Assembly (NCBI GenBank): GCA_900318205.1
Contig: ONJS01000004.1
Span: forward strand, 213,328 to 277,327
Source of the DNA: an uncultured Prevotellaceae bacterium
Lineage (GTDB): Bacteria; Bacteroidota; Bacteroidia; Bacteroidales; Muribaculaceae
Length of the DNA: 64,000 nt
Reading direction: 5' to 3'
Positions 24,271 through 58,979 of this stretch are shown here, piece by piece. The notes beneath the pieces were generated by a model that worked only from the letters and a program-made list of their open reading frames with translations, had not been told where the DNA came from and did not search any database. Each line of letters starts with the position of its first letter. The first letter of the stretch is position 1. Both the position numbers and the translations under genes were made by a program.

Positions 24271-24289
24271 TTTACTTGTTTTCACACCG

Positions 24290-35640: not shown

Positions 35641-37327
35641 CAAGCGACTATCAATCAACTCCCACGCGACCCGGTGGCATGATGCCGCCTACTGGGGCCT
35701 GATGCTCGTCGTCTGCATCTTGTTCTATATCATGAACTGCTGGACTTCCTTCAAGGAGGATGACATGGAGTTCTCCCTGCTGCGTGATGCAGGGCTCATG
35801 GATTTTCTGCGAGCCCAGTATGACCATTATATGACTGCCAACGGCCGTTGTGCCGACTTCTTTGCGACCCTTTTCTGTGCCTATCTGGGCAAGCCGTTGT
35901 TTAACGTCGTCAACACCTTGATGTTTGCCGGAATGGCCCATCTGGTAAGTCTCCTGAGCACGGGTCGCCGGTCGGTGCTGGTACTGGCACTGTTCATCGC
36001 CTACGTTGGCTTGTGGTTCCCGGTACCCGGTCAGACGATGCTGTTTGTCGCAGGCAGTTGCAACTACATGTGGGCCATCGTTGCCTCGCTGTTGATGGTA
36101 TATCTGCTGCGGAAGTACAGCCGCCAGCCTCGTCCCGGCAAAATCAAAACCATCCTGCTCATCCTGTTGGCTTTTGTCGCAGGAAACTTCAATGAGGCGA
36201 CTTCGTTCGGCTTCTTCGGCGGCTTGGTGCTGTATTATCTTTTCAACCGCAAAGAAATCAATCGCACCGTCGTATTGGTGCTGCTGTCATACCTGGCTGG
36301 ACTCGTCGTCATTATGGGGTCACCTGCCGCTTGGCAACGAGCCTCGACCAGCGTGGTTGTCGATTTAAGTTTCAAGGACCTGCTGATGAGCCGCGCCTAC
36401 ATCTTCGCCAAGATGATGGTGCGCATCGTTGCCCCAGCACTCGCCGTGCTGGTCGGTTGCGTAATGCTGGTGAAGAAATCCGTTCGACCTCTGCTCCAAT
36501 GCTTGTGGACCTATATCCTACCCTGCCTCATGTTGCTGATGATTGCACTGGGATACCTGTATGACAGAGCCTATGCCCCCATGGCGACGGTAGGCTTCAT
36601 CATTCTCGCCATGGTCATCGATAGCCTGACAGCACGGCGGTCCGTGGTGCGACTTGCGGTCATCATCCTATGCCTTGCCGTGAGTGCCCTGTATTATCCT
36701 TCACGCATGAAGGTGCTGCGTGACCTGAAGCAATTTGAAGACCGTATCGCCAGCGACATCACCCAGGCACCGAGTCAAGCGGTGCTGCACGAGTATGTTT
36801 TCAATGGGAGCAGTCCCTTTGCCACGCCCTTGAGATATGTGTCGAGGGAGTTCTTCAACCGCGAATCCACCTATCGCGCCTACTTCGGGAAAGAGAACGT
36901 CCAATTTGTGGACGATTCCGTCTATGCGCGATATCACGAGGGCCGACTGCTGGACGGCGCCAAACCGCTGCCGATGGTGAGCGACCGCCCGGAAATTGCC
37001 GATACCGTGTTGCTCGTCGCTGGACAGGACTACATGATTATACCCGTGAAAGGTGACACCTTGCCTGCATCTCCCCAGTTGGCCATCTTCCACCTGAAGA
37101 GCAGCAACCGCGGATTAAGTCCTGAGGAAATCAAAGGCCGCAAGAGACTGGGTATCGACACCGATTTTTCACCTTATGGCTGCTATCCGCTTTTTTATCA
37201 GGGTCAGCAACTGCTGGTACTCCCCACCATGGGCCGTAACGTCTCCCACATCACGATTCAACTCGACTACATGGGCGAACTCGGCGAACTAACCCTAACC
37301 CCCACCAGTCCAAAGCCTAACATCTAG
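35633..37327 (+). CDS. DUF6056-like polytopic membrane protein, putative GT-C enzyme (copy 3)
   Basis: 564 residues. The N-terminus is MDNKRLSINSHATRWHDAAYW, then SFKEDDMEFSL after the first helix, GKPLFNVVNTLMFAG, PVPGQTMLFVAGSCNYMW and NEATSFGFFGG. ATG 35633 overlaps the previous stop by eight bases, so translation is coupled. The extreme C-terminus (SPKPNI) and stop are encoded by a reverse copy of the TAGATGTTAGGCTTT repeat, suggesting that repeat insertion reset the 3' end. The next gene begins two bases later. Confidence 0.78.
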   Translation: MDNKRLSINSHATRWHDAAYWGLMLVVCILFYIMNCWTSFKEDDMEFSLLRDAGLMDFLRAQYDHYMTANGRCADFFATLFCAYLGKPLFNVVNTLMFAGMAHLVSLLSTGRRSVLVLALFIAYVGLWFPVPGQTMLFVAGSCNYMWAIVASLLMVYLLRKYSRQPRPGKIKTILLILLAFVAGNFNEATSFGFFGGLVLYYLFNRKEINRTVVLVLLSYLAGLVVIMGSPAAWQRASTSVVVDLSFKDLLMSRAYIFAKMMVRIVAPALAVLVGCVMLVKKSVRPLLQCLWTYILPCLMLLMIALGYLYDRAYAPMATVGFIILAMVIDSLTARRSVVRLAVIILCLAVSALYYPSRMKVLRDLKQFEDRIASDITQAPSQAVLHEYVFNGSSPFATPLRYVSREFFNRESTYRAYFGKENVQFVDDSVYARYHEGRLLDGAKPLPMVSDRPEIADTVLLVAGQDYMIIPVKGDTLPASPQLAIFHLKSSNRGLSPEEIKGRKRLGIDTDFSPYGCYPLFYQGQQLLVLPTMGRNVSHITIQLDYMGELGELTLTPTSPKPNI

Positions 37328-37329
37328 AA

Positions 37330-39030
37330 ATGAAGCGTCAAACGACATATCCCGACTCACTGCGTGGCATCATGCGTTGGCACGATGTCGCCTATTGGGT
37401 ATTGCTCGGACTGGCCTGTGCCGTGTTCCTGCTGATGAACGTGTTGACGCCCTACAAGGAGGATGACATGGGGTTCACGCTCATCGACGGGGTGTGGACG
37501 CGGGTAAACTCGCTCGCCGACGCCTGGCTGTCCTACCGCAATCACCTCACCAATACCAACGGCCGCCTGTCAGACATCATCCCCACCCTATTTGCCGGAT
37601 TGCTGGGCAAAGGGGCCTTCAACGTGTGCAACACGTTGGTGTTCGGGCTGATGGCTCATCTGATGAGTCTGCTGTGTGCTCGCCGCCGCTCGGTGACTGT
37701 ACTGACGATGTTCCTTGCCGTCGTGGGCACCTGCTATCCCGTGCCAGGCGAAACGATGTTGTGGATGTCGGGCAGCGCCAACTACCTGTGGGCCGTCACC
37801 CTATCGCTCGGTCTCATCTATTATCTGCAACGAGAGCATGACCACTCATTGGGATGGGGAAAGGGCGCATTGCTATTCCTAGGCGCAGTTGTGGCTGGTG
37901 GTTTCAACGAGGCGACTTCATTTGGCTTCTTTGCCGGAATGTGCCTGTATTATGCCTTCAATCGCCGGAAACTGGACCGCCGGGCAGTAGTGGCTCTTGT
38001 CGGATACATGGTCGGCATTCTCTTGATTGTATCTTCGCCGGCGGCATGGAGTCGTGCTACCAGCGGGGACCTAATCCTCAACCTGCCCTTTGATAAACTC
38101 CTCTCCAGCCGTTGGCATATCTTTGCTGAAAAATCATGGCGTTTTTACCTACCCGTCGGAGCGCTGCTCGTGGGCATTGTAGCCTTGATGATGAAGCGGG
38201 GACGTGCCGTCAAGGAGTGCATCTGGAGTTACATCTTCGTGGGTCTGACACTGGTGATGTTCGCTCTGGGCGTCTTGCACGAGCGTGCCTATGCCCCGTG
38301 GGTCACTGTGGCCTTCATCGTTGTGGCCATCGGAGTTGACCGCATCCTGGCACGGCAGCCGTGGCCACGTTTGGCAATCATCCTGCTGTCGGTCGCTTTG
38401 ACGGTGTTCACCTTCGGTCGCGGCATCAAGATGCTGCAGCAGTACAAGACCTTCAATGACCAGATCGTCAACGAGATTGAGGCAGCCCCTCAACAGGCCG
38501 TACTGCATGAACAACAGTTCCAAGGCTACAGCCGTTTCATCAAGCCGATGAATTACCAGAGTGACAATTTCTTTGCCCACGAGATCGTCTATCGCGGCTA
38601 CTTTGACAAGACCAACGTGCAGTTCGTCAGCGATTCAATCTATGTGAGGTACCAAGAGGGGCGCCTGCTTGACGGAGCCTCATCCATCATGCCCCGCAGC
38701 GACCGTCCCGACCTTGCCGGGCCCGTTTATACCTTTGAAAACCAGGACTACATGGCATTCCTGCTCAAGACCCCGTCCCTGCCCTACACATTCCAGACAG
38801 CCCGGGCCTATACCTCATCGGCAACGGCTAAAACTATTGACCAGACCGAGGTTGAAAAACGCGAGAAATACGGCATCCGTCTGGACTATATCCCCATCGG
38901 GTTCTATCCCATTGAGTATCAAGGTCAGTGCTATCTCATTTGCCGCAAGCCTGATGCCACTGTCCACAAGATTGTCTTTCCCTTGACCCTGCCTCCTGAC
39001 CCTGAAGAGATCACTTTTGAGGGTTTCTAG
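37330..39030 (+). CDS. DUF6056-like polytopic membrane protein, putative GT-C enzyme (copy 4)
   Basis: 566 residues. Motifs in order: MRWHDVAYWVLLG, PYKEDDMGFTL, GKGAFNVCNTLVFG, PVPGETMLWMSGSANYLW, NEATSFGFFAG, and in the soluble end FDKTNVQFVSDSIYVRYQEGRLLDGA, a segment strongly conserved among all five copies. Starts two bases after copy 3. The gene ends the operon; the 125-base gap before porZ holds a 14-bp palindrome at 39122-39135. Confidence 0.78.
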   Translation: MKRQTTYPDSLRGIMRWHDVAYWVLLGLACAVFLLMNVLTPYKEDDMGFTLIDGVWTRVNSLADAWLSYRNHLTNTNGRLSDIIPTLFAGLLGKGAFNVCNTLVFGLMAHLMSLLCARRRSVTVLTMFLAVVGTCYPVPGETMLWMSGSANYLWAVTLSLGLIYYLQREHDHSLGWGKGALLFLGAVVAGGFNEATSFGFFAGMCLYYAFNRRKLDRRAVVALVGYMVGILLIVSSPAAWSRATSGDLILNLPFDKLLSSRWHIFAEKSWRFYLPVGALLVGIVALMMKRGRAVKECIWSYIFVGLTLVMFALGVLHERAYAPWVTVAFIVVAIGVDRILARQPWPRLAIILLSVALTVFTFGRGIKMLQQYKTFNDQIVNEIEAAPQQAVLHEQQFQGYSRFIKPMNYQSDNFFAHEIVYRGYFDKTNVQFVSDSIYVRYQEGRLLDGASSIMPRSDRPDLAGPVYTFENQDYMAFLLKTPSLPYTFQTARAYTSSATAKTIDQTEVEKREKYGIRLDYIPIGFYPIEYQGQCYLICRKPDATVHKIVFPLTLPPDPEEITFEGF

Positions 39031-39135: not shown

Positions 39136-39191
39136 GGCGACCTGTCATTGCCGCGATGAGATTTATTCATGCTTTAAAACAAGAGATTGAG

Positions 39192-41507
39192 ATGATAAAG
39201 AAGATATTATTGCTGGTATCTGTGGCCATCATGTCGGCATTATGCCCTGTTGCTGCTCAAAATGCGGTGGGAGACTGGGTCATCCACAATACGTTTGTCG
39301 GTACCGACGTGACCGCTGTCGCCGAGGCTAATAATTGGGTTTACTATCTGGCAGGCGGCAATCTGTTCCGCCTTGACAAGGAGACGCTAGAGAATGAGGC
39401 ACTGAGCATCGTGAATTACTTGAGCGACTCGGGCATTAGCCAGATTTACTATAACAGCGAGAGGGAGTATCTTGTCATCATCTACAGCAATGCCGACATC
39501 GACATCATCAAGTCTAACGGCTCTGTGGTCAATATGCCCGAAATCAAGGATGCCGTAATGACATCCAGCAAGAACATCAACGACGTGACCTTTGCCGATG
39601 GCGTCATTTATGTGGCAGCCGACTTCGGCTACGTGGTTATCGATGACCACAAGTTTGTCGTCAAGGAGTCCCACATTTATGGCGAGCCCATCGTGTCGGT
39701 GGCCAAGGTGGGCAATAAACTGTTGCTCTCTACAGCCAACACATTCTACTATGGCGACGCCGACAAGTACTACGACCAACTGTCGGCTTTCACTGCCACC
39801 GATTTCCGCAGCAACTGCCGCATCTGGCCCATCAATGACAAAGCATTCTTCTGCATGACGGGCTGGACGTTCCTGGCCTCAATGACCCCCGAAGATGAAA
39901 ATAATGTCAAATTCAATTCACACACAATCATTGAGAGCAAGACCGCCTATGTCCAGAAGACCACCGACGAGGGTTTCCTGCTGAATGTGCCCCTGCAAGG
40001 CATGTGCTACAAGACCAACGAGGTAGGTGAGATTGTCGAGGAATTTGAGACTCCCGACGAGAAGTGCAGCTCCCACCCCGATGGTAATGGCGATATGTGG
40101 GCCGCTGGACCTAAAGGCTTGCATCACTTGGGTCAAGAGGACTACTACCTGCCTAACGCGTTGTCTTTCAGCAACCCCTTCTGGATGACTTACAACAAGG
40201 GGAAGGATATGCTGTACGTCTCCAATCCCACTGCCAACGGATTCTTCACCACCATGTCGGCATGCCGCGTGAACACCTATGACGGCATCATGTGGCATGA
40301 TGTCACTCCCGCGGGAGCACCTAAATACGGAACCTACTGGATTGAGTTCTTGCCTGACGATGACAACACCTACTTTATCGGAGCCTGGACCAATGGTCTC
40401 CACAAGGTGGTCAACAACGAGATTGTCCTGACCTATAATTCCGAGAACAGCCCACTGGTAAAACGTTCAGGTGCAATGCACCCCGTTACCAGTATCGACC
40501 GCTACGGCAACGTGTGGGCAGTACAGCCCTTTGAGAATAAAGACCATCCCGTCATGGTGCTTCCTGCTGCCAAGGCTAAGCTCAATCAGGTGACTGTCAA
40601 TGACTGGATTACACCCGTTATTGAAGGCATCAATTCAGAGTACACCCAGCGTTGCAGTTTCCTCTCGACCCGTTACAGCAACTACGATATCAAGATATTT
40701 ACCGATGGTGACTTCCAGAGGCCTATCTTCTTCTGGAACTGTGGTGGGGAGCTTCCCGTCAACCCGCAGCAGGTATCGTTCACTAGGCTGCTGGACCAGG
40801 ACGGCCAGTACTTCAGCTGGACAAATATCTTGTGCTTTGCCGAGGACTTGAACGGCACAGTGTGGATGGGCACCTCCGAGGGTATCGTTTCATTCAACCC
40901 GGCAAATGCCTTCTCAAGTGACTTCAGGGTGAATCACATCAAGGTGCCTCGCAATGACGGCACCGGCATGGCCGACTACCTGCTTGACGGTATCCAGGTC
41001 AACGGCATCGCTGTCGATGGCGCTAACCGCAAGTGGATTGCTACCAACAATTCCGGCTTGTTCCTCGTCAGTGCCGACGGTACCAAGATCATCAACAAGT
41101 TCAATAGCACCAACAGTCCATTGGCGTCCAATACGGTCTATAAGGTGTGCTGCAACCCGAACAGCAACTCGGTATTCGTCACCACGCCCGAGGGCTTGTA
41201 TGAATACTTCAGCGATTCCAGTCCTGCCGAGCCCAACTATGACAACATCTACGCCTATCCCAACCCCGTTCGACCTGAATACAGTGGCAACGTGACCATC
41301 ACCGGCATGATGGACAACTCGCTCATCAAGATTGCCGACGCCAGCGGTGTAGTCATTCGCCAGATGAAATCAACGGGCGGCATGGCGACTTGGGACTGCT
41401 GCGACCAGTATGGCGAGTACGTCAAGACGGGTGTCTATATGGTACTCTGCTCACAAGCCAACGGCAGCGGTGAGGCCGTAGTGACCAAAATCGCCGTCAT
41501 CCGATAA
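39192..41507 (+). CDS. porZ: PorZ-like T9SS surface beta-propeller protein with C-terminal sorting-type domain
   Basis: 771 residues. Signal peptide MIKKILLLVSVAIMSALCPVAAQ (ATG 39192; a start at 39156 would only add a basic extension). Two seven-bladed propeller-like halves with two-component-regulator-propeller style repeats follow, then a C-terminal domain with YAYPNPVRPEYSGNVTI and GVYMVLC-type strands, the CTD of T9SS substrates. PorZ in Porphyromonas gingivalis works with the PorU sortase to deliver anionic lipopolysaccharide to substrates. Similarity to PorZ rests on the opening VGDWVIHNTF...AEANNWVYYLAGGN segments and on architecture. Confidence 0.72.
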   Translation: MIKKILLLVSVAIMSALCPVAAQNAVGDWVIHNTFVGTDVTAVAEANNWVYYLAGGNLFRLDKETLENEALSIVNYLSDSGISQIYYNSEREYLVIIYSNADIDIIKSNGSVVNMPEIKDAVMTSSKNINDVTFADGVIYVAADFGYVVIDDHKFVVKESHIYGEPIVSVAKVGNKLLLSTANTFYYGDADKYYDQLSAFTATDFRSNCRIWPINDKAFFCMTGWTFLASMTPEDENNVKFNSHTIIESKTAYVQKTTDEGFLLNVPLQGMCYKTNEVGEIVEEFETPDEKCSSHPDGNGDMWAAGPKGLHHLGQEDYYLPNALSFSNPFWMTYNKGKDMLYVSNPTANGFFTTMSACRVNTYDGIMWHDVTPAGAPKYGTYWIEFLPDDDNTYFIGAWTNGLHKVVNNEIVLTYNSENSPLVKRSGAMHPVTSIDRYGNVWAVQPFENKDHPVMVLPAAKAKLNQVTVNDWITPVIEGINSEYTQRCSFLSTRYSNYDIKIFTDGDFQRPIFFWNCGGELPVNPQQVSFTRLLDQDGQYFSWTNILCFAEDLNGTVWMGTSEGIVSFNPANAFSSDFRVNHIKVPRNDGTGMADYLLDGIQVNGIAVDGANRKWIATNNSGLFLVSADGTKIINKFNSTNSPLASNTVYKVCCNPNSNSVFVTTPEGLYEYFSDSSPAEPNYDNIYAYPNPVRPEYSGNVTITGMMDNSLIKIADASGVVIRQMKSTGGMATWDCCDQYGEYVKTGVYMVLCSQANGSGEAVVTKIAVIR

Positions 41508-47104: not shown

Positions 47105-48736
47105 CTATTTATCCAATAACAGTTGGATGAGATATGTGACATCCGAAACGGTGATCTCTTGGTCATTGTCAACGTCGGCACGCACCCTGACTTCCTTGTC
47201 ATAGACTCCTCCCAAGAGGATATCCACAATGACATTGACATCGGCGATGCTCGCTTGTCCGTCACCGTCCACATCTCCCTGTTCGTAGGTGGGAGGAGGT
47301 TCGGGCGGGGTGTAACGGAACATACCATCCAACCATTTAATGCGCTTGACCAGCCAATCCTTGATGTAGCGGATCTCGTCGTCATAACTCGTCGATACAT
47401 AGTAATTGGGCCATACCCACACACCCCAGCGTGGCCATGCCTGGCTGTTGCGGGCCTCGGCACCACAGCAGGTCACCTCGTTGGCCAGTGAATCGATGGT
47501 CGCCCACAAGCGGTCGTCACGCAGGTTGGCTTGCCTCATCTGGGCCCAACGTGCCCTGCGCTGCAACACATAATCGTTGTCCGAAATAAACCGTTGCCAC
47601 CAGAAGGGAATCATCGGGTCACCGGTTTGATAAAAATTGGCATTCATTCGTGAAACCCAATTGCCAGTGGCAGACCCCTGGTTGTGACGGCAATTACCGA
47701 AGGCCAGGTTAAAGTCCCAAATCACCATCTTGAAACGCGGGTCAATGCTGTCGCGCTGTTTATAGAACTTGGCACTCATCCTGTAGGCATCCACATTGTG
47801 ACCAAGCTCGTTGACAATCTGATAGTCCATGAAGGACTGCATGTCAACATACTTGCGGTAACCTATCTCAGGATCCTTAAAGTCAGGAGAGGCAAACGCG
47901 TCCTCCATCCTGTCGATGGCCTCGTTGATGTACCGGATCTGTTCACTGGTCATATCCTCATAGTCGGGCGACTTGTACTGGAACTGGATAATGCGGTCGG
48001 TATAGGTGATGACGCCATCGGCATCCACGGGATGATACTTTGAGACATAGGTCATCTCATCGTCGATTCCCACTTCCATGATGTAACCGCCCGTCAATTC
48101 TTCGCCCTCCATGCCGGGATCATCCAGGTTGAGGCGATACTTGCCCTTGGAAACCACCTCGCAGAGGATGTATACGCCGTAATAGATGCCGTCAAGATAG
48201 ACTTCACACAGCCGGCCTTGAGGCGTGTAATCCATCCAAGGTCTAGCCACTTCAAAGGCCAGCAGGTCACGGATCATGCTCTTGTCGGAATATGGAGCCA
48301 ACAGAGCCCAGTTGTTATCCTTGCCCATGCCCAAAATCGGCACTTTCTTCTTGTCATATCCCTGCTCAAGGGGCTTGCTCAAGGTGCGGAAAGAGTAAGG
48401 CTTTTTATCACTCACGCTGTAGGATGAGTTGCCGCGATAGCGCAGGGCGATATAGCCCTCATAATCAATGTGCTGACCCGGATGTGCCACCGTGTCGCCA
48501 TAGTTAAGTTGTCCCTTTCCGTTATGAATGATTTTCATGCGTGCCGAGATGCGTTCTTCGCGGTCAATCGTGGCACCGTCCACATCAATCCACACGATAG
48601 GCAGATTGGTGGAATCAATTACCACCGTCTTGTCGTCCGGCGGATAATTGTCGGGATCCTGTGCCAATGCGATATTGCCGAGTGACAATACCACCATCAA
48701 CGCCAACAGAAATAGTCGTTTAATCATTTTATTCAT
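47105..48736 (-). CDS. secreted CotH kinase-like protein with C-terminal dockerin (copy A)
   Basis: 543 residues. Signal peptide MIKRLFLLALMVVLSLGNIALAQ. The CotH domain (about residues 40-440) has RYRGNSSYSVSDKKPYSFR, LGMGKDNNWALLAPYSD, MIRDLLAFEVARPW, GHNVDAYRMSAKFYKQRD and the motif WDFNLAFGN, in which the second metal-site Asp of the WDxD pattern is Asn. The dockerin (about 480-543) has GDVDGDGQASIADVN and ADVDNDQEITVSDVT calcium loops. No cohesin gene is present here. It is the most divergent of the four tandem copies; an own promoter lies at 48757-48786. Confidence 0.8.
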   Translation of the reverse strand: MNKMIKRLFLLALMVVLSLGNIALAQDPDNYPPDDKTVVIDSTNLPIVWIDVDGATIDREERISARMKIIHNGKGQLNYGDTVAHPGQHIDYEGYIALRYRGNSSYSVSDKKPYSFRTLSKPLEQGYDKKKVPILGMGKDNNWALLAPYSDKSMIRDLLAFEVARPWMDYTPQGRLCEVYLDGIYYGVYILCEVVSKGKYRLNLDDPGMEGEELTGGYIMEVGIDDEMTYVSKYHPVDADGVITYTDRIIQFQYKSPDYEDMTSEQIRYINEAIDRMEDAFASPDFKDPEIGYRKYVDMQSFMDYQIVNELGHNVDAYRMSAKFYKQRDSIDPRFKMVIWDFNLAFGNCRHNQGSATGNWVSRMNANFYQTGDPMIPFWWQRFISDNDYVLQRRARWAQMRQANLRDDRLWATIDSLANEVTCCGAEARNSQAWPRWGVWVWPNYYVSTSYDDEIRYIKDWLVKRIKWLDGMFRYTPPEPPPTYEQGDVDGDGQASIADVNVIVDILLGGVYDKEVRVRADVDNDQEITVSDVTYLIQLLLDK

Positions 48737-48756
48737 ATACTTTTGTCAATATGCCG

Positions 48757-48786
48757 CAAAAGTACTCTAAAAAAACGAAAAACAAG
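48757..48786 (-). promoter_or_regulatory. promoter of CotH-dockerin copy A
   Basis: Minus strand: CTTG (48783-48786), an 18-base spacer, TACTTTTG (48757-48764), 20 bases before the ATG at 48736. The spacer is slightly short. Confidence 0.5.
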
Positions 48787-48819
48787 TATTTATGTCACAG
48801 AATTCAATATTTTTCACTT

Positions 48820-50436
48820 TTACGATGCTTCCCAATAGCCTTGCAACAAGAAGTTGATCAATGCCGTCACATCGCTGATGGCGACATCGCCGTTCAGGTC
48901 ACAATCGGCTGCATCAAGGTAAACGCCCGTGGCATCACTCGTAAGCAGGTAATTGATAAGGACGGTCACGTCATTGATGGTTACCTGATAATCTCCATTC
49001 ACGTCACCACGCTCGCGACTATCGGGGTCAAAACCCAACTGGCCGTCCATCCAGGCGATGCGATCTGTGAGCCACTGCTTGAGAAAGGCAATGGCATCGG
49101 CGTAACTGGTAGGAACATAGTTGTTGGGCCATACGTACACGCCCCACCGCGGCCACGCTTGGTCATTACGGGTTTCAGCCCCGTGGGATGTAACGATAGA
49201 GGCCAGCGAATCTATCTCTGCCATGAGGCGATCCAATCTCAAGTTACTACGGCGATATTGAGCCCAGCGAGCCTTCAGGGCAGCAGTGTAACTGGGATCC
49301 TTGTTGAGTTTATACCACCAGAAGGGTACCAAGTAGATATTAGCTTGTGCCAGCAATGTATCATTCATCTCGTAGCTCCAGTTTTCAGTTCTCCAAGCGC
49401 CATAATAGTAGGGCATACCATAAGCCAAATCCATATCCCATACCACCATCTTGAAGCGCGGGTCCTCACTGTCGCGACGCTTGAATAACTTTCCGCTCAA
49501 GCGATAGGCATCCACATTGTGCCCCAGTTCCATAGCAATCTGGTAATCGATGAAGTTTTCCACATCAATATACTTGCGATAACCCGTTTCTGGATTCATG
49601 TAATTACTGGAGTTTAAGGCGCCTTCCATCAGGTCAATCTGGCGATTAATATAATCCAACTGGGCCTGACTCATGTCCTCATAATCGGGAGACGAGTACT
49701 GAAAATAGATATTATATCCTGCAAGGATGGCACCGGTAGAGGTCCTCGGGTAGTATTTAGAGACATATACATTTCCATCATTGCGATCCACTTCCATGAT
49801 ATAACCACCCGTGAGATCATCTCCTTCTTCACCTGGATCAGAAAGATTCAGACGGTGCTTCCCCTTGGAAACAACTTCAGTCAGGATATAGACTCCATAG
49901 TAAATGCCGTCAAGATAAAGTTCGCAGAATCGACACTGTGGCGCGTATTCCATCCAAGGACGCGAGATATCAAAGGACAGGGGAACACGCACCATACTTC
50001 GGTCACTGTAGGGTGCCAGTAATGCCCACTTGTTGTCCTTGCCCATGCCCAAGATCTTCACCTTCTTTTTCTCACCACCATCCTCCAGCGGTTTGTCAAG
50101 TGGCCTGAAAAGATAAGGTTTCCGGCTGTGGTTAAATGACGAGTTCCCACGATAGCGCAATGCTATATAGCCTTCATAGTCTATGGTCTGACCTGGATGC
50201 GCCACCGTATCGCCATAGTTGAGGTTTCCACTGCCGTTGTGAATAATCTTCATGTGCGCAGTGATATACTCTGTCTTAAGAATCATCGCGCCATTCACCT
50301 CCACCCAGACGATAGGCAGATTAGTCGAACCAATTGTAATTGTTTTGTTATTTGGAGGGTAATTGTCAGCACGTTGGGCATATGCCATTATACACGCGAA
50401 CAATAAACACAAAGTGAGGATTAAATACTTATTCAT
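48820..50436 (-). CDS. secreted CotH kinase-like protein with C-terminal dockerin (copy B)
   Basis: 538 residues. Signal peptide MNKYLILTLCLLFACIMAYAQ. CotH elements: RYRGNSSFNHSRKPYLFR, LGMGKDNKWALLAPYSD, GHNVDAYRLSGKLFKRRDSE and WDMDLAYGM, which keeps the second Asp. The dockerin has GDVNGDYQVTINDVTVLINY and DCDLNGDVAISDV loops and is nearly the same at DNA and protein level as in copy C, more so than the rest of the gene. Possible -7 box at 50468-50475 (TATTTTTG, minus) without a clear -33. Confidence 0.8.
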   Translation of the reverse strand: MNKYLILTLCLLFACIMAYAQRADNYPPNNKTITIGSTNLPIVWVEVNGAMILKTEYITAHMKIIHNGSGNLNYGDTVAHPGQTIDYEGYIALRYRGNSSFNHSRKPYLFRPLDKPLEDGGEKKKVKILGMGKDNKWALLAPYSDRSMVRVPLSFDISRPWMEYAPQCRFCELYLDGIYYGVYILTEVVSKGKHRLNLSDPGEEGDDLTGGYIMEVDRNDGNVYVSKYYPRTSTGAILAGYNIYFQYSSPDYEDMSQAQLDYINRQIDLMEGALNSSNYMNPETGYRKYIDVENFIDYQIAMELGHNVDAYRLSGKLFKRRDSEDPRFKMVVWDMDLAYGMPYYYGAWRTENWSYEMNDTLLAQANIYLVPFWWYKLNKDPSYTAALKARWAQYRRSNLRLDRLMAEIDSLASIVTSHGAETRNDQAWPRWGVYVWPNNYVPTSYADAIAFLKQWLTDRIAWMDGQLGFDPDSRERGDVNGDYQVTINDVTVLINYLLTSDATGVYLDAADCDLNGDVAISDVTALINFLLQGYWEAS

Positions 50437-50566
50437 CTTTTTCTATTAAATTTGCAGTTATCAACCACAAAAATAATAGAAAAAGAATACCCTAGGGCTC
50501 AACAGCGAATAAATCCGCACTAAGTCCCCTCATTTTCAACAAAAACCATAGGGATAAGCCTAAGAC

Positions 50567-52180
50567 CTAATCCCAACTCTCGCCCAGCAGGAAGTTGATC
50601 AATGCCGTCACATCGCTGATAGTGACATCGCCGTTTAGGTCACAATCGGCAGCATCAAGGTAAACGCCCGTGGCATCACTCGTGAGCAGGTAATTGATGA
50701 GAACTGTCACGTCATTGATGTTGACCTGACCATCGCCATCCACGTCACCACGCTCGCGGGCACTTGGATCATATCCCAACTGGCCGTCCATCCAGGCGAT
50801 GCGCTCGGTGAGCCACTCTTTGAGATAGCCCACTTCATCTTGAAAATCTTCGGCTACATAATAATTGGGCCACACATGTTCCCCCCAACGCGGCCACGCC
50901 TGACTGTTGCGAGCCTCAGCACCATGTGAGGTCAAGACAGTGGCCAGTGAGTCCACCGTGGCCATGATGCGGTCGTCACGCAGGTTGGCACGACGATACT
51001 GTGCCCATCGGGTCTTTAAGGCGGCGGTATATTCGGGACTGGTATTCAGTTTGTACCACCAGAACGGGATGAGTTGGGGGTCCCCCTCGGCATTCATCGT
51101 GTTGTTGTTCTGGTACATCCAAGTGTTGGTGCGCCAGCCCTCGTAATAGTCGGAGTTGCCATAGGCCAGATTCATGTCCCACACCACCATCTTGAACCGC
51201 TGGTCCTCGCTGTCGCGACGCTTGAAAAACTTGCCGCTCAGACGGTAGGCATCCACGTTGTGACCCAGTTCCATCGCCAACTGGTAGTCAATGAAGTTGG
51301 TCACGTCAAGGTATTGTTCATAATCAGGGGTGTTATTTGGCTTGTAATTCCACAGCGACTGCTCCATCTGGTCGATGCGACCGGTGATGTAGCTCACCTG
51401 TTCCTGAGTCAAGTCTTCATAATCGGGTGATTTGTACTGGAAATTGATATACTGGTTCATATAGCGGACACCCGTTTTGCTCACGGGATGATACTTGGAG
51501 GTATAGGTCACCTCGTCATCAATACGGTTCACCTCCATAATGTAGCCACCGGTGATGGAATCGCCCGTCAGTCCGGGATCAGACAGATTGATGCGATGCT
51601 TGCCCTTGGAGACGGTCTCAGTCAGGATATAAACGCCATAATAGGTGCCATCAAGGAAGACCTCGCAATAACGGCCCTGGGGCGTGTATTCCATCCATGG
51701 GCGAGAGACTTCAAAGGCCAGCAGGTCACGCATCATGCTCTTGTCGGCATAGGGAGCCAGCAACGCCCAGTCGTTGTCCTTGCCCATACCCAGGATATTG
51801 ACTTTCTTCTTGGTGCCACCCTCCTCCAGAGGTTTATCCAGCGGGCGGAAGGAATATGGCTTCTTGTCACTCATCGAGAAAGACGAGCTGCCGCGGTAGC
51901 GTATCGCCACATAACCCTCGTAGTCGATGGTCTGTCCCGGGTGAGCGATGGTGTCAGCATAGTTGAGTTGTCCTTCACCATTGTAGATAATCTTCATCTG
52001 AGCCGTGATGCGCTCATAACGGTCGATGTACTGCCCGTCCACGTCAATCCACACAATGGGCAGGTTGGTAGAAGTAAGATTTATATCCTCATTGTCGGGC
52101 GGATAGTTCCACCACCCCCAAGCGCGTGCCGTCGTTGCCAACGCCAGCATCGCCATAGCAAGCAATAGTAGTCGTTTCAT
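50567..52180 (-). CDS. secreted CotH kinase-like protein with C-terminal dockerin (copy C)
   Basis: 537 residues. Signal peptide MKRLLLLAMAMLALATTARAWG. CotH motifs: RYRGSSSFSMSDKKPYSFR, LGMGKDNDWALLAPYAD, GHNVDAYRLSGKFFKRRDSE, WDMNLAYGN (Asn in place of the second Asp). The dockerin carries the GDVDGDGQVNINDVTVL loop and DCDLNGDVTISDV. Possible minus-strand -7 box TAAATTTG at 52208-52215. Neighbours on both sides are paralogues in the same orientation. Confidence 0.8.
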   Translation of the reverse strand: MKRLLLLAMAMLALATTARAWGWWNYPPDNEDINLTSTNLPIVWIDVDGQYIDRYERITAQMKIIYNGEGQLNYADTIAHPGQTIDYEGYVAIRYRGSSSFSMSDKKPYSFRPLDKPLEEGGTKKKVNILGMGKDNDWALLAPYADKSMMRDLLAFEVSRPWMEYTPQGRYCEVFLDGTYYGVYILTETVSKGKHRINLSDPGLTGDSITGGYIMEVNRIDDEVTYTSKYHPVSKTGVRYMNQYINFQYKSPDYEDLTQEQVSYITGRIDQMEQSLWNYKPNNTPDYEQYLDVTNFIDYQLAMELGHNVDAYRLSGKFFKRRDSEDQRFKMVVWDMNLAYGNSDYYEGWRTNTWMYQNNNTMNAEGDPQLIPFWWYKLNTSPEYTAALKTRWAQYRRANLRDDRIMATVDSLATVLTSHGAEARNSQAWPRWGEHVWPNYYVAEDFQDEVGYLKEWLTERIAWMDGQLGYDPSARERGDVDGDGQVNINDVTVLINYLLTSDATGVYLDAADCDLNGDVTISDVTALINFLLGESWD

Positions 52181-52274
52181 TGGTCAATCTTTTTCTAGTA
52201 GTCGCTGCAAATTTACTAAAAAACTATTAGTTCTGACCATAAAGGCCACACTATTCCGTCCTAAGAATTTCAAC

Positions 52275-53885
52275 TTATTGGTTGAGGATTATATCAAGAA
52301 CGGCATTGACGTCGGCAATGCCCACCTCACCGTCGCCGTTCACGTCACCATTGGATTCACTGCGGCCCATGAGTATCATGTCCATCACGGCATTGACGTC
52401 GGCGATGCTCACCTCGCCGTCACCGTTCACGTCACCCAGCAAGACGGCAGTAGGATCAAAGCCCAACTGGCTGTCCATCCATGCGATGCGGTCAGTAATC
52501 CATTGCTTGAGCCAAGCCACCTCATCGGCATAATTGCTGGCCACATGGTAATTGGGCCAGACCCAGACGCCCCAGCGTGGCCAAGCCTGGCTGTTGCGCT
52601 GTTCGGCACCATGTGACGTGATGACATTGGCCAAGGAGTCCACAACTGCCAGGACTCGTTCCTGACGCAGGTTACTGCGTCGGTACTGTGCCCATCGCTT
52701 CTTGAGCGCCGAGATGTAGGCGGGATTACTGTTCAACTTGTACCACCAGAAGGGAATCAGATAGGTCTCGTAAGCGCTGTACATGATGTCATTGTTCTTG
52801 TACATCCAGGTATCGGTGCGCCATGCCTCATTATAGTTGGCATTGCCATAGGCCAGATTCATATCCCACACCACCATCTTGAAACGCGGGTCCTCACTGT
52901 CGCGACGCTTGAAGAACTTACCGCTCAAGCGATAGGCATCCACATTGTGGCTAAATTCCTCAGCCAACTGGTAGTCAATGAAATTGGTCACATCGATATA
53001 CTTCTCGTAGGTGGCCTCTCCGCTCGGACGATAGTTCCACAACGCGCTTTCCATCTGGTCAATGCGGTTCTTGATGTATTTCACTTGCTCGCTGTTCAAC
53101 TCGTCATAATCGGGCGACTTGTACTGGAAGTAGATGTACCGATTGGTATAAGGAGAACCTTTACTGCTCACAGGGTGATATTTTGAGACGTGGGTCACCC
53201 CCTCGGCGCGGTCCACCTCCATGATGTACCCGCCGGTGAGGCCATCGCCGCTATCGCCCGGATCGGGCAGGTCGATGCGGTGCTTACCCTTGGAGACCAC
53301 TTCACTGAGAATATAAACGCCATAGTAGATGCCGTCAAGGAACAGTTCGCAATAGCGGCCCTGGGGCGTATATTCCATCCATGGGCGAGCCAGCTCAAAG
53401 GTCAACAGGTCACGCATCATGCTCTTGTCGGCATAGGGGGCAAGCAATGCCCAGTTGTTGTCCTTGCCCATGCCCAGGATATTCACCTTCTTTTTCTCAC
53501 CACCAGCCTCAAGCGGAGCCGTCAAGGGCCGAAAAGAATAGGGTTTCTTGTCACTCATGCTAAAAGATGAACTGCCACGGTAGCGCAAGGCGACATAGCC
53601 CTCGTAGTCGATCTTCTGCCCTGGATGGGACACCGTGTCGGCATAGTTGAGTTGGCCGTTACCGTTATGAAGGATCTTCATGCGCGCTGTGATGCGTTCA
53701 TTGCTGTCAATATATTGCCCACCCACCGAAATCCACACGATGGGCAGGTTGGTGGACGTCAGCCGCACCTTCTTGTTATCGGGCGCATAGTTATCCCACC
53801 ACGACGAGGCGCGGGCCGTCCCAGTCAGCATCAGCACCGCCAACACAAGCAATATCAGCCGTCTTATTTCTCTGTCGGTCATCAT
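52275..53885 (-). CDS. secreted CotH kinase-like protein with C-terminal dockerin (copy D)
   Basis: 536 residues. The signal peptide is MMTDREIRRLILLVLAVLML..TARA. CotH motifs match copy C (RYRGSSSFSMSDKKPYSFR; WDMNLAYGN with Asn). The dockerin is of a different subtype: two nearly identical loops GDVNGDGEVSIADVNAVMDM and GDVNGDGEVGIADVNAVLDI, closer to the giant protein at 12155-16798. It starts eight bases after the xerD stop, so it may be cotranscribed with xerD. Confidence 0.8.
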   Translation of the reverse strand: MMTDREIRRLILLVLAVLMLTGTARASSWWDNYAPDNKKVRLTSTNLPIVWISVGGQYIDSNERITARMKILHNGNGQLNYADTVSHPGQKIDYEGYVALRYRGSSSFSMSDKKPYSFRPLTAPLEAGGEKKKVNILGMGKDNNWALLAPYADKSMMRDLLTFELARPWMEYTPQGRYCELFLDGIYYGVYILSEVVSKGKHRIDLPDPGDSGDGLTGGYIMEVDRAEGVTHVSKYHPVSSKGSPYTNRYIYFQYKSPDYDELNSEQVKYIKNRIDQMESALWNYRPSGEATYEKYIDVTNFIDYQLAEEFSHNVDAYRLSGKFFKRRDSEDPRFKMVVWDMNLAYGNANYNEAWRTDTWMYKNNDIMYSAYETYLIPFWWYKLNSNPAYISALKKRWAQYRRSNLRQERVLAVVDSLANVITSHGAEQRNSQAWPRWGVWVWPNYHVASNYADEVAWLKQWITDRIAWMDSQLGFDPTAVLLGDVNGDGEVSIADVNAVMDMILMGRSESNGDVNGDGEVGIADVNAVLDIILNQ

Positions 53886-53893
53886 AAAAGTTA

Positions 53894-54823
53894 CTATTCG
53901 TGTTGTCTGGTACTGGAAAGGTTGCGGGGATGGTGCTGGAGGATTTCGTCGCGCAGGCGGGAGCGGTCAATATGGACGTAGATTTCGGTTGTCGTGATGC
54001 TCTCGTGGCCCAGCATCTGCTGGATGGCACACAGATTGGCTCCGCCTTCCAGCAAGTGGGTGGCGAAACTGTGGCGCAGGGTGTGGGGACTGATGACCTT
54101 GCGAATTCCCGCCAGCTCGCACAGCTGCTTGACAATGAGAAAAATCATCTGGCGCGTCAACATCGCCCCGCGACGGTTCAGGAACAGGATGTCTTCATTG
54201 CCTCGTTGGGCGACTTGGCGGGAACGTGTCTGTTCCAGGTATAGTGCAATCTGTTCTATAGCAACAGGCGAGATAGGCACGATGCGCTGCTTGTTGCCCT
54301 TGCCCTGAATGACGAGGTAGCGCTCGTCAACATAGAGTTGAGACAGCTTTAATGTCACCAGTTCGCTCACGCGCAGGCCGCAGCCGTAAAGCGTCTCGAT
54401 GATGGCGCGGTTGCGCTGTCCCTCGGCCTTGGACATGTCGATGCAATCTATCATGCGGTCTATCTCTTCCACGGTCAGCACCTCGGGCAGATGACGGCCT
54501 ATCCTGGGCGTCAGCAGCAATTCGGTGGGGTCATTATCCATGTATCCCTCCATCCGCAGGAACTTATAAAAACCTTTCACACCGCTGATGATACGCGCCT
54601 GGGAACGCGGCTGGATGCCCACGTCCTGCAGCGTACAGACAAAACGCTCTAGGTCATCGGTCGTGGCATGCTCAATCCCCACACCAGCATCTGCGAAATA
54701 GCGAACGAGTTTGTCCACATCGTCGCTATAGGCCTGCGCGGTGTTGGTACTCATGCCTTTCTCCAGGGTCAAGTGGCCCAGGAAGCGCTGCTTCACATCA
54801 TTGATGTCGGTAATGTCGCGCAT
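53894..54823 (-). CDS. xerD: site-specific tyrosine recombinase XerD
   Basis: 309 residues, the normal size. XerD resolves chromosome dimers at dif with XerC and FtsK. N-terminal core-binding SAM-like domain residues 10-100. Catalytic residues in order: Arg151 (GLRVSEL), Lys175 (GKGNKQR), His247 and Arg250 (HTLRH), His273 (LGHES) and Tyr282 (EIYVH). Complete and probably active. The gene immediately precedes CotH copy D. A mobile-element integrase is less likely given the typical XerD length and motifs. Confidence 0.9.
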   Translation of the reverse strand: MRDITDINDVKQRFLGHLTLEKGMSTNTAQAYSDDVDKLVRYFADAGVGIEHATTDDLERFVCTLQDVGIQPRSQARIISGVKGFYKFLRMEGYMDNDPTELLLTPRIGRHLPEVLTVEEIDRMIDCIDMSKAEGQRNRAIIETLYGCGLRVSELVTLKLSQLYVDERYLVIQGKGNKQRIVPISPVAIEQIALYLEQTRSRQVAQRGNEDILFLNRRGAMLTRQMIFLIVKQLCELAGIRKVISPHTLRHSFATHLLEGGANLCAIQQMLGHESITTTEIYVHIDRSRLRDEILQHHPRNLSSTRQHE

Positions 54824-54976: not shown

Positions 54977-56572
54977 TTAGTTAATTGTTAAAATGCCTTG
55001 GATGGTGTCAGTCAGCAGTGGATCGTAGTTGTCATTGGCAATGACAGTGATCTGGTTGTCACCGTCAAGCGCAATCTTCAAGCGACGGTTGTCACCGCCG
55101 TCAAGCCAATCAAGTCGCAAGGCTAGCGTGTCGCCCTGCCAAGCATAGGCTGCCGCACTGGTAAAAGGCCGCCGTGTGCCCACCAGTTGCTCACGGCTCT
55201 CCATGATGTAGATGGGCCGATTGTCGCTTGTCGTGAGGCGCCACTCGCCACAGGCGGCAACAGCCAGCAACGGGCCACGCCAGTCATACATCTTGAAGAT
55301 GCGGTCATTGCCCATGGGCGACACCTCTATCGCTTCCAAGCCCAACAGATTCTTTTCCAACAAGATTCGACCCTCAAACAGTCGGCGCTCCATCGGGTGC
55401 GTCGCCTCGCCTTGAGGCCTATCTATCGCTAAGGTTACTGGCTCACTATCGCCTTCAGGAACATCACCACCGATAAGCGGATTCACCAACTGGTAATAGA
55501 TGGTATTCAACTCGTCGCCATACTCTGCCGCCCTGCCATTGATAACGAGGACCAAGTCAAGCTTGGGGACGACATAGATGAGTTGCCCGCCATAGCCCGC
55601 GGCAAAAAACGACTCGGCACGCGGATGCTGGATAGCCTTGGTCTGGTAACCGTAACCCAAGTAGTAGTCATCGGTATTATAACCCGTGAACCATGAGCGG
55701 ATGGTGTGCCATGCCGAACGCAAAAACTTCAGGAAGCGCTGCCACAGCGACAACTTGGGCTGCACTGCGTGAGACGTGCTGATGTAGCGCTGCGTCATGT
55801 CATGTATCCACTGGCTGCTCACCAATTGTTTGCCATTCCACTGACCGCCGTTGAGCATCAGTTGTCCCAATTTGGCCTGGCTTTCGGTCTGCAGGCGCAG
55901 CCCCCACCCTGCTGCCTCAACACCGTCGGGAGCCAATTCCCAATCGGTCTCGACAATGTGCATGGGGGTGAAAATGCGTTCCCTCACATATTCCAGCAAA
56001 GGTTTTCCTGTAACCCTTGTGACAATCATCGCCAGGGCATGGGTGCACATCGAATCATAGTGGAAGACCTTGCCCACATGATGGAAATCACCCTGGAACC
56101 ACTTCGTCAGCCAATCCTCATCGCCCATGAAAATGCTCAAGTCCTCCAAGCGTCCCGACGCCATCATCAAGATGTTGCGCACGGTGAGGCTGTCAAGGGC
56201 GGGCGACAGTGTCGCGGGCATCTTGTCGCGCAGGTATTTCGACACCTTGTCATCGACCGACAGCAGGCCGTCGTCCACAGCGAGTCCCACCGCGAGGGCC
56301 GTCACCGTCTTGCTGGAACTATATAGCGTGTGCAGGTCGGTGGCACGATAGGGCGCAGCATGCAACTCGCCGATGACCTTGCCATGGCGCAACACCATCA
56401 TGTGGTGGATATCCACATCGGGCAAAGTGGTTATCTTGTGATAAAAGTGATTCAACAGCGCAGAATCCACACCCTCGGCCTCGGGAGTGCTACGCGGCAG
56501 TTCGCCCACCTGAGCAGACGAACTCAAGGCAAGAGCCAAAAACGCTATGAGAGCAACGCAGAAACGAGTCAT
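54977..56572 (-). CDS. secreted serine hydrolase, beta-lactamase/AmiE-like (copy 2 of pair)
   Basis: 531 residues with a signal peptide (MTRFCVALIAFLALALSSSAQ). The class C beta-lactamase/DD-peptidase-like fold has S85-S-S-K88 (SxxK) and a YDSMCTHALAMIV segment carrying the catalytic Tyr. The C-terminal 150 residues form a beta-rich extra domain. By context it may be the MurNAc-L-Ala amidase (AmiE) of muropeptide salvage. Its start overlaps the preceding paralogue's stop by four bases. Confidence 0.8.
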   Translation of the reverse strand: MTRFCVALIAFLALALSSSAQVGELPRSTPEAEGVDSALLNHFYHKITTLPDVDIHHMMVLRHGKVIGELHAAPYRATDLHTLYSSSKTVTALAVGLAVDDGLLSVDDKVSKYLRDKMPATLSPALDSLTVRNILMMASGRLEDLSIFMGDEDWLTKWFQGDFHHVGKVFHYDSMCTHALAMIVTRVTGKPLLEYVRERIFTPMHIVETDWELAPDGVEAAGWGLRLQTESQAKLGQLMLNGGQWNGKQLVSSQWIHDMTQRYISTSHAVQPKLSLWQRFLKFLRSAWHTIRSWFTGYNTDDYYLGYGYQTKAIQHPRAESFFAAGYGGQLIYVVPKLDLVLVINGRAAEYGDELNTIYYQLVNPLIGGDVPEGDSEPVTLAIDRPQGEATHPMERRLFEGRILLEKNLLGLEAIEVSPMGNDRIFKMYDWRGPLLAVAACGEWRLTTSDNRPIYIMESREQLVGTRRPFTSAAAYAWQGDTLALRLDWLDGGDNRRLKIALDGDNQITVIANDNYDPLLTDTIQGILTIN

Positions 56573-58074
56573 AAGACAGTAAACGGTATGGTCACTGGTT
56601 TAGCATTGGGATAAGTGTCACGGATGGTCACCTCATGCTTGTCAAAGTCAAAGACGTAGGTCATTCCGCTGATCCAGTCCACATAGTGCACACGCACCTC
56701 CAGTGTCACAGGCGACACCCAGGCATAGGCAGCCGCGGCAGTGAAGCCGTTTGTGAAACCTTTCATGCGGTTGATGGCGTTGATAGAGTAATAGGGGTAG
56801 CCGTTTAGGGGGCTATAGCACCAAGTGCCGTAGCCTAAAACAAACTTCTCGCTGTCCTCGGCTTCGTAATCCACAGTCATGGTGTTGGCAGCAGCACCAA
56901 AAGACAGTTCCATCTGCCTTATGCCAAACTTGTTGGATGCCAATTGCAGTTTTTTGCTTTGATGCTGGCCTTTCTTGCCTCGAGGCAATGCCAGCGATGC
57001 CTTGGCGCAGAGATTGTCCAACTTCTTCTGCAACCTATTCTCGGACTTCAACGGTGCATCTTTCAATCCTGGCATCAATTGGTTCCAGATGCAGGCCAAT
57101 TCCTCGTGACCGTAGAGCTTCATGCCCAAGATGACCACAACAAGGTCTGCCTGCGGCACCACGACGGTATATTGTCCCATCGCGCCATCGGCACGGAAGG
57201 AACCGGGCCACTTGCTCTGCCACACCTGGTAGCCGTAGCCCTGATTGCCGTCGGTAGCCGGCACGGTTTCCTTGGCTCCACCATCAATGAGTCTTGAGCA
57301 GGCATCGGTCACATAATTGGCACTGACAAGTTGTTCTCCGTTCCAGTTACCCTTATTCAACAGCAGCAGTCCAAGTTTGGCCATTGTCTCGGCCTGGACA
57401 CGCAAGCCCCAACCACCTGTGTTGATGCCATCGGGGCTGGCTTCCCAATCGGCCACGGTAATGTGCATGGGAGCGAACAATTTCTTCTGCAGATATTCCA
57501 GCATGGTGTAACCCGTCACGCGCTGCACGATGGCACTGAGCATAAAGGTACACATCGAGTCATATTGGAACAGGCTACCGGGCTTGTCATCGACAGACTT
57601 TGCCAACCAGTCCTTGACCCAGTCCACGCTATTGTTGCGCATCGTCCAGTCAGGTTTCACACCCGATGCCATCATCAACAAATCACGTACCGTCATGTCG
57701 GCCATGTTGTCGCTGACGCGATGAGTGCGCTTGTCGGGGAAGAAGGTCATCACACGATCGTCCAGCCGCAGCAGGTTCTCGTCGATGGCGCAGCCCACAG
57801 CCAGTGCGGTGAACGTCTTGCTGGCCGAGTAGAGCGTGTGACTGTCCTCGGCACGGAATGGCGCGGGATGCAATTCGGCAACCACCTTGCCATGGCGCAC
57901 GACCATCACGTGGTGGATGTCGCACTCGGGCAACGACATCAGGGAATCCATCATGTTGATGACCGCTTGGGTGCTGATGCCCTCGGCTGCAGGCGTGCTG
58001 CGGGGCAAGTCGCCCACCTGTGCCGCCAGCAACAGCGGCAACAATGCCAGTAATAAAATCAGTCGACGTTTCAT
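56569..58074 (-). CDS. secreted serine hydrolase, beta-lactamase/AmiE-like (copy 1 of pair)
   Basis: 501 residues. Signal peptide MKRRLILLLALLPLLLAAQ. Active-site S83-A-S-K86 (YSASKTFTA) and Tyr in QYDSMCTFMLSAIV; ITVADWEASPDG then WGLRVQAETMAKLG are conserved in its neighbour. A duplicated gene pair with the downstream hydrolase. The stop/start overlap with the WYL gene upstream (four bases) indicates one operon. Confidence 0.8.
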   Translation of the reverse strand: MKRRLILLLALLPLLLAAQVGDLPRSTPAAEGISTQAVINMMDSLMSLPECDIHHVMVVRHGKVVAELHPAPFRAEDSHTLYSASKTFTALAVGCAIDENLLRLDDRVMTFFPDKRTHRVSDNMADMTVRDLLMMASGVKPDWTMRNNSVDWVKDWLAKSVDDKPGSLFQYDSMCTFMLSAIVQRVTGYTMLEYLQKKLFAPMHITVADWEASPDGINTGGWGLRVQAETMAKLGLLLLNKGNWNGEQLVSANYVTDACSRLIDGGAKETVPATDGNQGYGYQVWQSKWPGSFRADGAMGQYTVVVPQADLVVVILGMKLYGHEELACIWNQLMPGLKDAPLKSENRLQKKLDNLCAKASLALPRGKKGQHQSKKLQLASNKFGIRQMELSFGAAANTMTVDYEAEDSEKFVLGYGTWCYSPLNGYPYYSINAINRMKGFTNGFTAAAAYAWVSPVTLEVRVHYVDWISGMTYVFDFDKHEVTIRDTYPNAKPVTIPFTVL

Positions 58075-58979
58075 GATTCTACTATTTGATAATGTTTTAT
58101 TGCTCTCTCAAGTTCATCGCGGATAAGGGTTTTCAGTTCCTTGGGCTCCAACACCTCGATGGTGGCGCCGTGGGACATGATTTCCTCTTTCAGGTCATAG
58201 GTAATACGCATCTTGTAGGTGAAGATGGAATAATCGTCATGTACCACTTCCTGCTGGGAACTGTGCAGCGGCAAGGCACGGAAGTACTTCGCCTGGGTCG
58301 GCTCCACACGCAGCACGATGCGCTTGGCACTGTTACGGTTGGTGATGATGCCGAAGCAGTCCTTGAAAAACTCCGACGGGTTCACCTCCTCAGGCATGAC
58401 GAACGTATCCTGCAGGATGTTCAGGCTGCTGATGCGGTCAAGCGCATAGGTCTTGACCTGGCGATCCTTGACATTGAGGCCAATGACATACCACAGTTGC
58501 TTGAAGATCTTGACAAAATAGGGTTCCAGTACAATGCCATCGGTGGGCAACGAACGAGTGTAACTCTTATAGGAAAAGCGGATGCGACGGTTCTGCTTCA
58601 GCGCATCGATAACCACTGGCAGGTGTTCGCGAGCCGAAGGCACATTTTCAAGCATGATGCGGCCGCTCACGTCACGCGCATTGCTCAATGTGCCGCTCAT
58701 CGACACCGAATCCACCACCCAAGACCGCAGAAGCGCATTGCTCTCGCTGCCTGAGTCATCAATATAGTACTCAAAGGTGGATTTATCGCATTGGATATTG
58801 ATGTCAAACATCTCTTCCACCCCATCGCGGTAGTGAAAGAACGTGCGCCGTGCCAACGGTTTTCCCTCGCTGATCTCGCTGCGCAGCCAAGCGGCATTCA
58901 GGTCCTTGAGCGTGATACGTCCGTAGCGGCTGATGGTATCCACCAGCCACACGTAACGGTTAATCAGGTTACGAGCCAT
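58071..58979 (-). CDS. WYL-domain transcriptional regulator
   Basis: 302 residues. Residues about 1-75 form a winged-helix-like DNA-binding part (LVDTISRYGRITLKDLNAAW, RRTFFHYRDGVEEMF). Residues about 125-210 are a WYL domain (RRIRFSYKSYT, VLEPYFVKIFKQLWYVIGL, TYALDRISSL), which senses a ligand, often a nucleotide or sugar derivative. A WCX-like C-terminal part follows. It is embedded in the NamZ-symporter-hydrolase operon and overlaps the hydrolase start by four bases, so it probably autoregulates the operon. Confidence 0.82.
   Translation of the reverse strand: MARNLINRYVWLVDTISRYGRITLKDLNAAWLRSEISEGKPLARRTFFHYRDGVEEMFDINIQCDKSTFEYYIDDSGSESNALLRSWVVDSVSMSGTLSNARDVSGRIMLENVPSAREHLPVVIDALKQNRRIRFSYKSYTRSLPTDGIVLEPYFVKIFKQLWYVIGLNVKDRQVKTYALDRISSLNILQDTFVMPEEVNPSEFFKDCFGIITNRNSAKRIVLRVEPTQAKYFRALPLHSSQQEVVHDDYSIFTYKMRITYDLKEEIMSHGATIEVLEPKELKTLIRDELERAIKHYQIVES

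Follow-up and report, generated by a model that had tools for sequence, protein, structure and literature searches.

The window analyzed here is a stretch of 64,000 nucleotides from an uncultured Prevotellaceae bacterium (contig ONJS01000004.1, positions 213,328 to 277,327; GTDB family Muribaculaceae), whose genome is a 3.62-Mb draft that is 94.8% complete with 2.3% contamination. Four neighboring genes on its reverse strand encode proteins composed of a signal peptide, a CotH domain and a C-terminal dockerin, and a fifth CotH paralogue lies elsewhere in the window. These genes, with the array numbered in reading direction and protein lengths in amino acids (aa), are:

52275–53885, reverse strand: CotH-dockerin gene 1, 536 aa, signal peptide, CotH at 52476–53588, dockerin at about 52299–52439
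50567–52180, reverse strand: CotH-dockerin gene 2, 537 aa, CotH at 50789–51904, dockerin at 50585–50749
48820–50436, reverse strand: CotH-dockerin gene 3, 538 aa, CotH at 49048–50160, dockerin at 48844–49008
47105–48736, reverse strand: CotH-dockerin gene 4, 543 aa, CotH at 47330–48445, dockerin at 47114–47278
22858–24285, reverse strand: fifth CotH paralogue, CotH match with an expectation value (E) of 3e-44, GTG start, lipobox LGAC, no dockerin

Pfam searches identified CotH (PF08757) in all four open reading frames (ORFs) of the array, with E values of 2e-49 to 7e-47 that were over the curated cut-off and are far beyond chance. Dockerin_1 (PF00404) was identified over its curated cut-off in each of the four proteins (E 7e-5 to 1e-10). 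Two of these matches were barely over it (23.5 and 24.5 bits versus 22.9); both calcium-loop repeats were visible by eye in these two weak dockerins, and all four proteins have the two repeats matching PF00404 by which we recognize a type I dockerin. Signal peptides were found in all four proteins by eye and with a crude script, which in the protein of 48820–50436 flagged a possible lipobox followed by an ordinary cleavage site. A scan of the five CotH proteins against NCBIfam gave no match. The coordinates, Pfam matches and signal-peptide readings together confirmed the four same-strand neighbors described in an earlier note that was made from the sequence alone. Its fifth copy, a lipoprotein without a dockerin, was also borne out by the CotH match and the lipobox, except that the end it gave, 24270, was 15 bases off.

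The remaining four CotH copies of the window were 60–69% identical to that of 50567–52180, and most of the duplication is therefore not recent. The dockerins of genes 2 and 3 have a near-identical second repeat and their CotH parts are more divergent, which suggests gene conversion or module exchange within the array. At least three adjacent CotH matches were found in at least 6 of 21 relatives (G121, G122, G128, G131, G132 and G135 in our numbering of genomes), and such arrays therefore recur in the group.

The whole genome contains 19 CotH matches. We classed 49 CotH ORFs, namely these 19 and a non-random set from the 21 relatives, the 30 best-scoring of 209 matches. Of the 49, 33 carry a dockerin; a possible lipobox was seen in 3 of these and a counted tail in none. 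Among the 16 ORFs without a dockerin, 11 have a lipobox (9 recognized by pattern, and L010 and L116, in our numbering of ORFs and loci, by eye), 4 have a sorting-type tail recognized by eye and 1 has neither. This separation of dockerins from lipoboxes or tails (Fisher 7.6e-9) counts L125, with its single repeat, as dockerin-bearing, includes L126, which has no N-terminus, and excludes weak tail-profile matches in L009, L122, L134 and L138 that overlap the dockerin. The dockerin is N-terminal or internal in some CotH proteins (L006, L011, L012 and L014) and in other proteins (L021, L032 and L034). In L011, L012 and L014, which belong to the genome of the window, it is N-terminal and directly follows the signal peptide.

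Dockerins are numerous throughout this genome, with at least 151 matches from the 150 of 312 first-look candidates that were scored. On the window's contig they were present in 24 of 209 ORFs, 22 of which a script flagged for a signal peptide or lipobox. Four secreted proteins resembling formylglycine-generating enzyme (L032 and L034 by Pfam, L035 and L046 by reading) carry the dockerin N-terminally or internally.

The earlier note had proposed searching the whole genome for cohesins, the partners of dockerins. This revealed a single Pfam cohesin match of 26.2 bits, plus divergent cohesin-like modules with a cohesin fold that Pfam mostly misses: of ten cohesin-like ORFs nine were scanned, and only one of the nine passed Pfam Cohesin. 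We rejected the description of this genome as one without cohesins as too simple, because most of the modules escape the Pfam model. The closest sequence match of the cohesin-like profile in the Protein Data Bank (PDB) was 2jh2 (E 0.007), and the nearest named records of a cohesin module were from gut, mostly ruminant, Bacteroidales (Prevotellaceae RUG575, 82%; Muribaculaceae).

The cohesin-like modules occur in a recurring two-gene pair, in which a small cohesin-dockerin protein, or adaptor, is encoded beside a large scaffold protein that ends in a cohesin, a dockerin-like stretch, a second cohesin and a tail. The pair was identified at 16 of 24 loci, with a second protein of fewer than 260 aa in 13 of the 16; at three others (L086, L092 and L096) the second ORF was lost in ORF picking, and L093, L097, L099, L100 and L101 have other layouts. 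The listings and passages covered by our searches of an open-access library contained no description of this pair. No ORF of the genome had more than two profile-scored cohesin-like modules, a count that excludes a third, N-terminal cohesin-like stretch of a 698-aa ORF, which served in a script seed. ORFs with 5 to 10 modules were present in three other Bacteroidales, namely L102 (G043, contig C85), L103 and L104 (both G003) and L105 (G068). These look like candidate scaffoldins; of the G003 ORFs, one is recognized by Pfam Cohesin and another has a PF18962 type IX tail at its end (E 1.7e-9). A dockerin-bearing ORF lies immediately upstream of L102, L103 and L105.

Isoleucine occupied the first of the two recognition positions of the dockerin in 92 of 100 pattern-matched half-repeats from 54 own dockerins (the 30 best-scoring domains and those of contig C25, at least one of them from a cohesin-bearing ORF) and in 23 of 29 from 16 adaptors, versus valine in 24 of 29 from the scaffold-internal stretches; of the half-repeats that could have matched, the pattern recognized 100 of 108 among the own dockerins and 29 of 48 among those of the scaffolds. 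We take the positions that govern recognition to be those of clostridial dockerins. In cellulosomes, client and scaffold dockerins are split in specificity, and the isoleucine/valine split resembles that division, as a prediction rather than a proof.

A type IX secretion system is present, as SprA was identified in the genome (E 4e-186) and PorZ is encoded in the window. The TIGR04183 tail had seven matches, none of them in the scaffold ORFs. The tail of a modelled relative was beta structure. The own scaffold tails may act as type IX signals, a role that we only infer because they remained below every tail family's cut-off (one DUF6383 match, E 0.086).

Together, these observations led us to favor, as the probable reading, that the four array proteins are exported clients of a Bacteroidales-type cohesin-dockerin surface assembly and bear a kinase-like CotH head. 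The signal peptide would direct each protein to the periplasm, and the C-terminal dockerin, with its pair of calcium loops, would clip onto the cohesin-like modules of scaffolds and adaptors. Other CotH paralogues have a lipobox, or a tail at the C-terminus similar by eye to type IX sorting tails, and the dockerin would stand in for these attachments. An active center like that of protein kinases is most likely retained in the CotH domain, which would modify or bind neighboring surface proteins; this is the weaker half of the proposal. The tandem array would be a duplicated family presenting variants of one docked head. The surface scaffold invoked in the earlier note has become plausible through the divergent cohesin-like modules, the two-gene pair and the type IX system, although Pfam gives one cohesin.

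Several points weigh against this proposal. Ten of the 11 lipobox CotH proteins look like one orthologous group, and the separation of attachments therefore reflects few independent events; contig C25 as a whole, with a crude lipobox flag, shows no separation of dockerins from lipoboxes. Four genomes (G140, G085, G105 and G108) have dockerins and no detected cohesin-like match, and a dockerin match was absent from 12 of the 24 cohesin-positive genomes of the family sample described below. For the kinase part, the asparagine five residues after the first catalytic aspartate (D+5) in the catalytic loop of the solved CotH structure 5jd9 is a serine in all five window copies.

The most probable alternative is about the head and could hold together with docking: the CotH domain may be a catalytically weak or dead fold that serves as an adhesin or structural part, which we regard as somewhat less probable than not. 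A profile built from the CotH proteins of this genome, 19 in all, matched the Bacillus-type spore coat protein H of 5jd9 (E 3.7e-17), and the proteins thus match both the CotH profile and a solved CotH kinase; a phmmer search of the PDB with one CotH protein matched dockerins and no CotH structure. According to passages of PMC7821199, the D228Q and D251A mutants of B. subtilis CotH are inactive. In an alignment to 5jd9, where the spacing of these two aspartates is 23 as counted by eye, their equivalents D310 and D335 are kept in all five window copies. A glutamate invariant across the 19 own copies and the lysine of a K-P-Y motif are also retained in the window copies, and these residues together speak against a dead fold. 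In its favor, the serine at D+5 is present not only in the window copies but also in 29 of 29 proteins scored from relatives, a set that excludes L126, with asparagine in 6 of the 19 own CotH proteins. We take this asparagine to be a metal-binding residue in kinases, though not necessarily a defining one for the CotH family. We also know of no source of adenosine triphosphate outside the cell. Published proposals, as given in passages of their sources, are in line with a non-catalytic role, as cellulosomal CseP has been termed "possibly structural" and fungal CotH proteins have been proposed to bind plant walls. However, the serine is conserved rather than drifting, which argues against simple decay, whether or not the domain is active. 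A structure model from five CotH sequences was unusable, with a predicted local distance difference test score of 37.7. The exported phosphorylation system of the earlier note is supported only by the relationship to a CotH kinase of solved structure and by the two aspartates that are kept, and the catalytic-loop serine tells against it.

On a rather unlikely alternative, the dockerin-like repeats bind calcium but no cohesin and serve in folding or as a stalk, and the cohesin-like modules are ordinary beta-sandwich spacers. It would account for the cohesin-like modules being few relative to the dockerins, and for the four genomes with dockerins alone and the 12 of 24 with cohesin-like modules alone. 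The two kinds of module were nonetheless found together. In the genus, all four genomes have many of both. Cohesin-like matches were present in 8 and dockerins in 25 of the 119 genomes of the order sample, with both in 7 (6e-5), and in 24 and 19 of the 79 genomes of the family sample, with both in 12 (7e-4); both samples include the own genome, and these values, like those of 1.2e-4 and 4e-5 obtained at thresholds picked after the tables were seen, ignore phylogeny. The dockerin counts are lower bounds, with at most 49 scored per genome in the order sample and 70 in the family sample.

We consider it improbable that the array proteins are accessory parts of a classical cellulosome, that is, of a complex degrading plant cell walls. 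The genome has rumen relatives, CotH-dockerins are known in clostridial and fungal cellulosomes from passages of the literature, and of ten dockerin proteins scanned two were glycoside hydrolases (GH53 and GH123-like) and one had a starch-binding module, CBM26. Against this, the other scanned proteins, besides CotH, were of several kinds (C10 and S8 peptidases, formylglycine-enzyme-like, DUF285 and leucine-rich-repeat proteins), and no ORF of this genome exceeds two profile-scored cohesin-like modules, the ORFs with 5 to 10 modules having been seen only in other Bacteroidales. That the dockerin itself serves as a C-terminal signal for type IX secretion is very improbable: the type IX system, the mere seven canonical-tail matches and the many C-terminal dockerins would suit it, but the N-terminal and internal dockerins of CotH and other proteins disfavor a plain C-terminal export signal, which we rejected.

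Other features of the window were the following:

53894–54823, reverse strand: XerC/D-type tyrosine recombinase, separated by 8 bases from CotH-dockerin gene 1 on the same strand, given as context only
39156–41507, forward strand: PorZ-like type IX secretion protein (PF21544, E 3.7e-28), presumably surface-attachment machinery
12155–16798, reverse strand: secreted BNR/laminin-G-like protein in which an in-house profile identified a C-terminal dockerin, presumably a further client; Pfam reported no Dockerin_1 in it at E 1e-4

Three consecutive DUF6056 proteins (33841–39030) are encoded immediately before the PorZ gene. Upstream of the array and the recombinase gene, 54977–58979 holds two neighboring beta-lactamase-fold serine hydrolases, next to which lies a WYL regulator. 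A tRNA scan gave no match.

The earlier note had called the combination of CotH and dockerin non-standard, which held in part: such fusions are already known, and what is newer is their occurrence in Bacteroidales. Passages of the sources report a CotH module with a type I dockerin, as here, in the Clostridium thermocellum cellulosomal proteins CseP/Cthe_0044 and Cthe_0239 (PMC6083626), and a share of about 20% for CotH among the dockerin proteins found in five anaerobic fungi (PMC8665504); a review, in the passage available, terms their role unclear, structural or regulatory (PMC12484212). The C. thermocellum system is clostridial, with many-cohesin scaffoldins and plant-wall enzymes, whereas the present one has divergent cohesins, a tandem array and a type IX system in a Bacteroidales genome; the fungi have fungal dockerins in a eukaryotic cell. 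Bacillus CotH (5jd9/5jda) shares the homologous kinase domain and both catalytic aspartates but acts on spore coat proteins, whereas the proteins here are exported, probably docked, and have serine for the catalytic-loop asparagine. The closest PDB match of the cohesin-like modules, the NagJ cohesin of Clostridium perfringens (2jh2), is likewise non-cellulosomal, but cohesins of that type sit inside glycoside hydrolases rather than in scaffold/adaptor gene pairs.

Many dockerins with few cohesins, as found here, are also described in passages on Ruminococcus albus and R. bromii, which are Clostridiales; for R. albus surface attachment was suggested over a large scaffold (PMC6118326). Among camel-rumen Bacteroidetes, bin 136 is one of the bins with two to four tandem cohesin domains and has abundant dockerins, counted in passages that make no link to CotH, an adaptor pair or a type IX system, and bins 49 and 58 have 11 dockerins and no cohesin (PMC6071333). 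In a passage on a cattle set that does not state the phylum, 9 of 25 genomes had dockerins and no cohesins (PMC9763041), and a passage on a second camel set reports cohesins in Firmicutes only (PMC9177762).

We tentatively propose, as somewhat less probable than its opposite, that a gut Bacteroidales group presents a large share of the proteins it secretes, among them the CotH kinases, through its own cohesin-dockerin surface system. This would comprise divergent cohesins, a scaffold whose two cohesins flank a valine dockerin of distinct specificity, a small adaptor protein and anchoring by the type IX system. Surveys based on Pfam and CAZy leave dockerin-bearing genomes without cohesins, and the cohesin-like family described here offers a cheap test of what these dockerins partner. 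If the proposal is correct, the dockerins counted in cohesin-less rumen Bacteroidetes bins would gain partners, and the kinase heads, once exported, would act on proteins docked nearby. If the dockerins do bind, the system would be a Gram-negative counterpart of cellulosome-style assembly, whose cargo would be proteases together with adhesin-like and kinase-like proteins instead of mostly cellulases.
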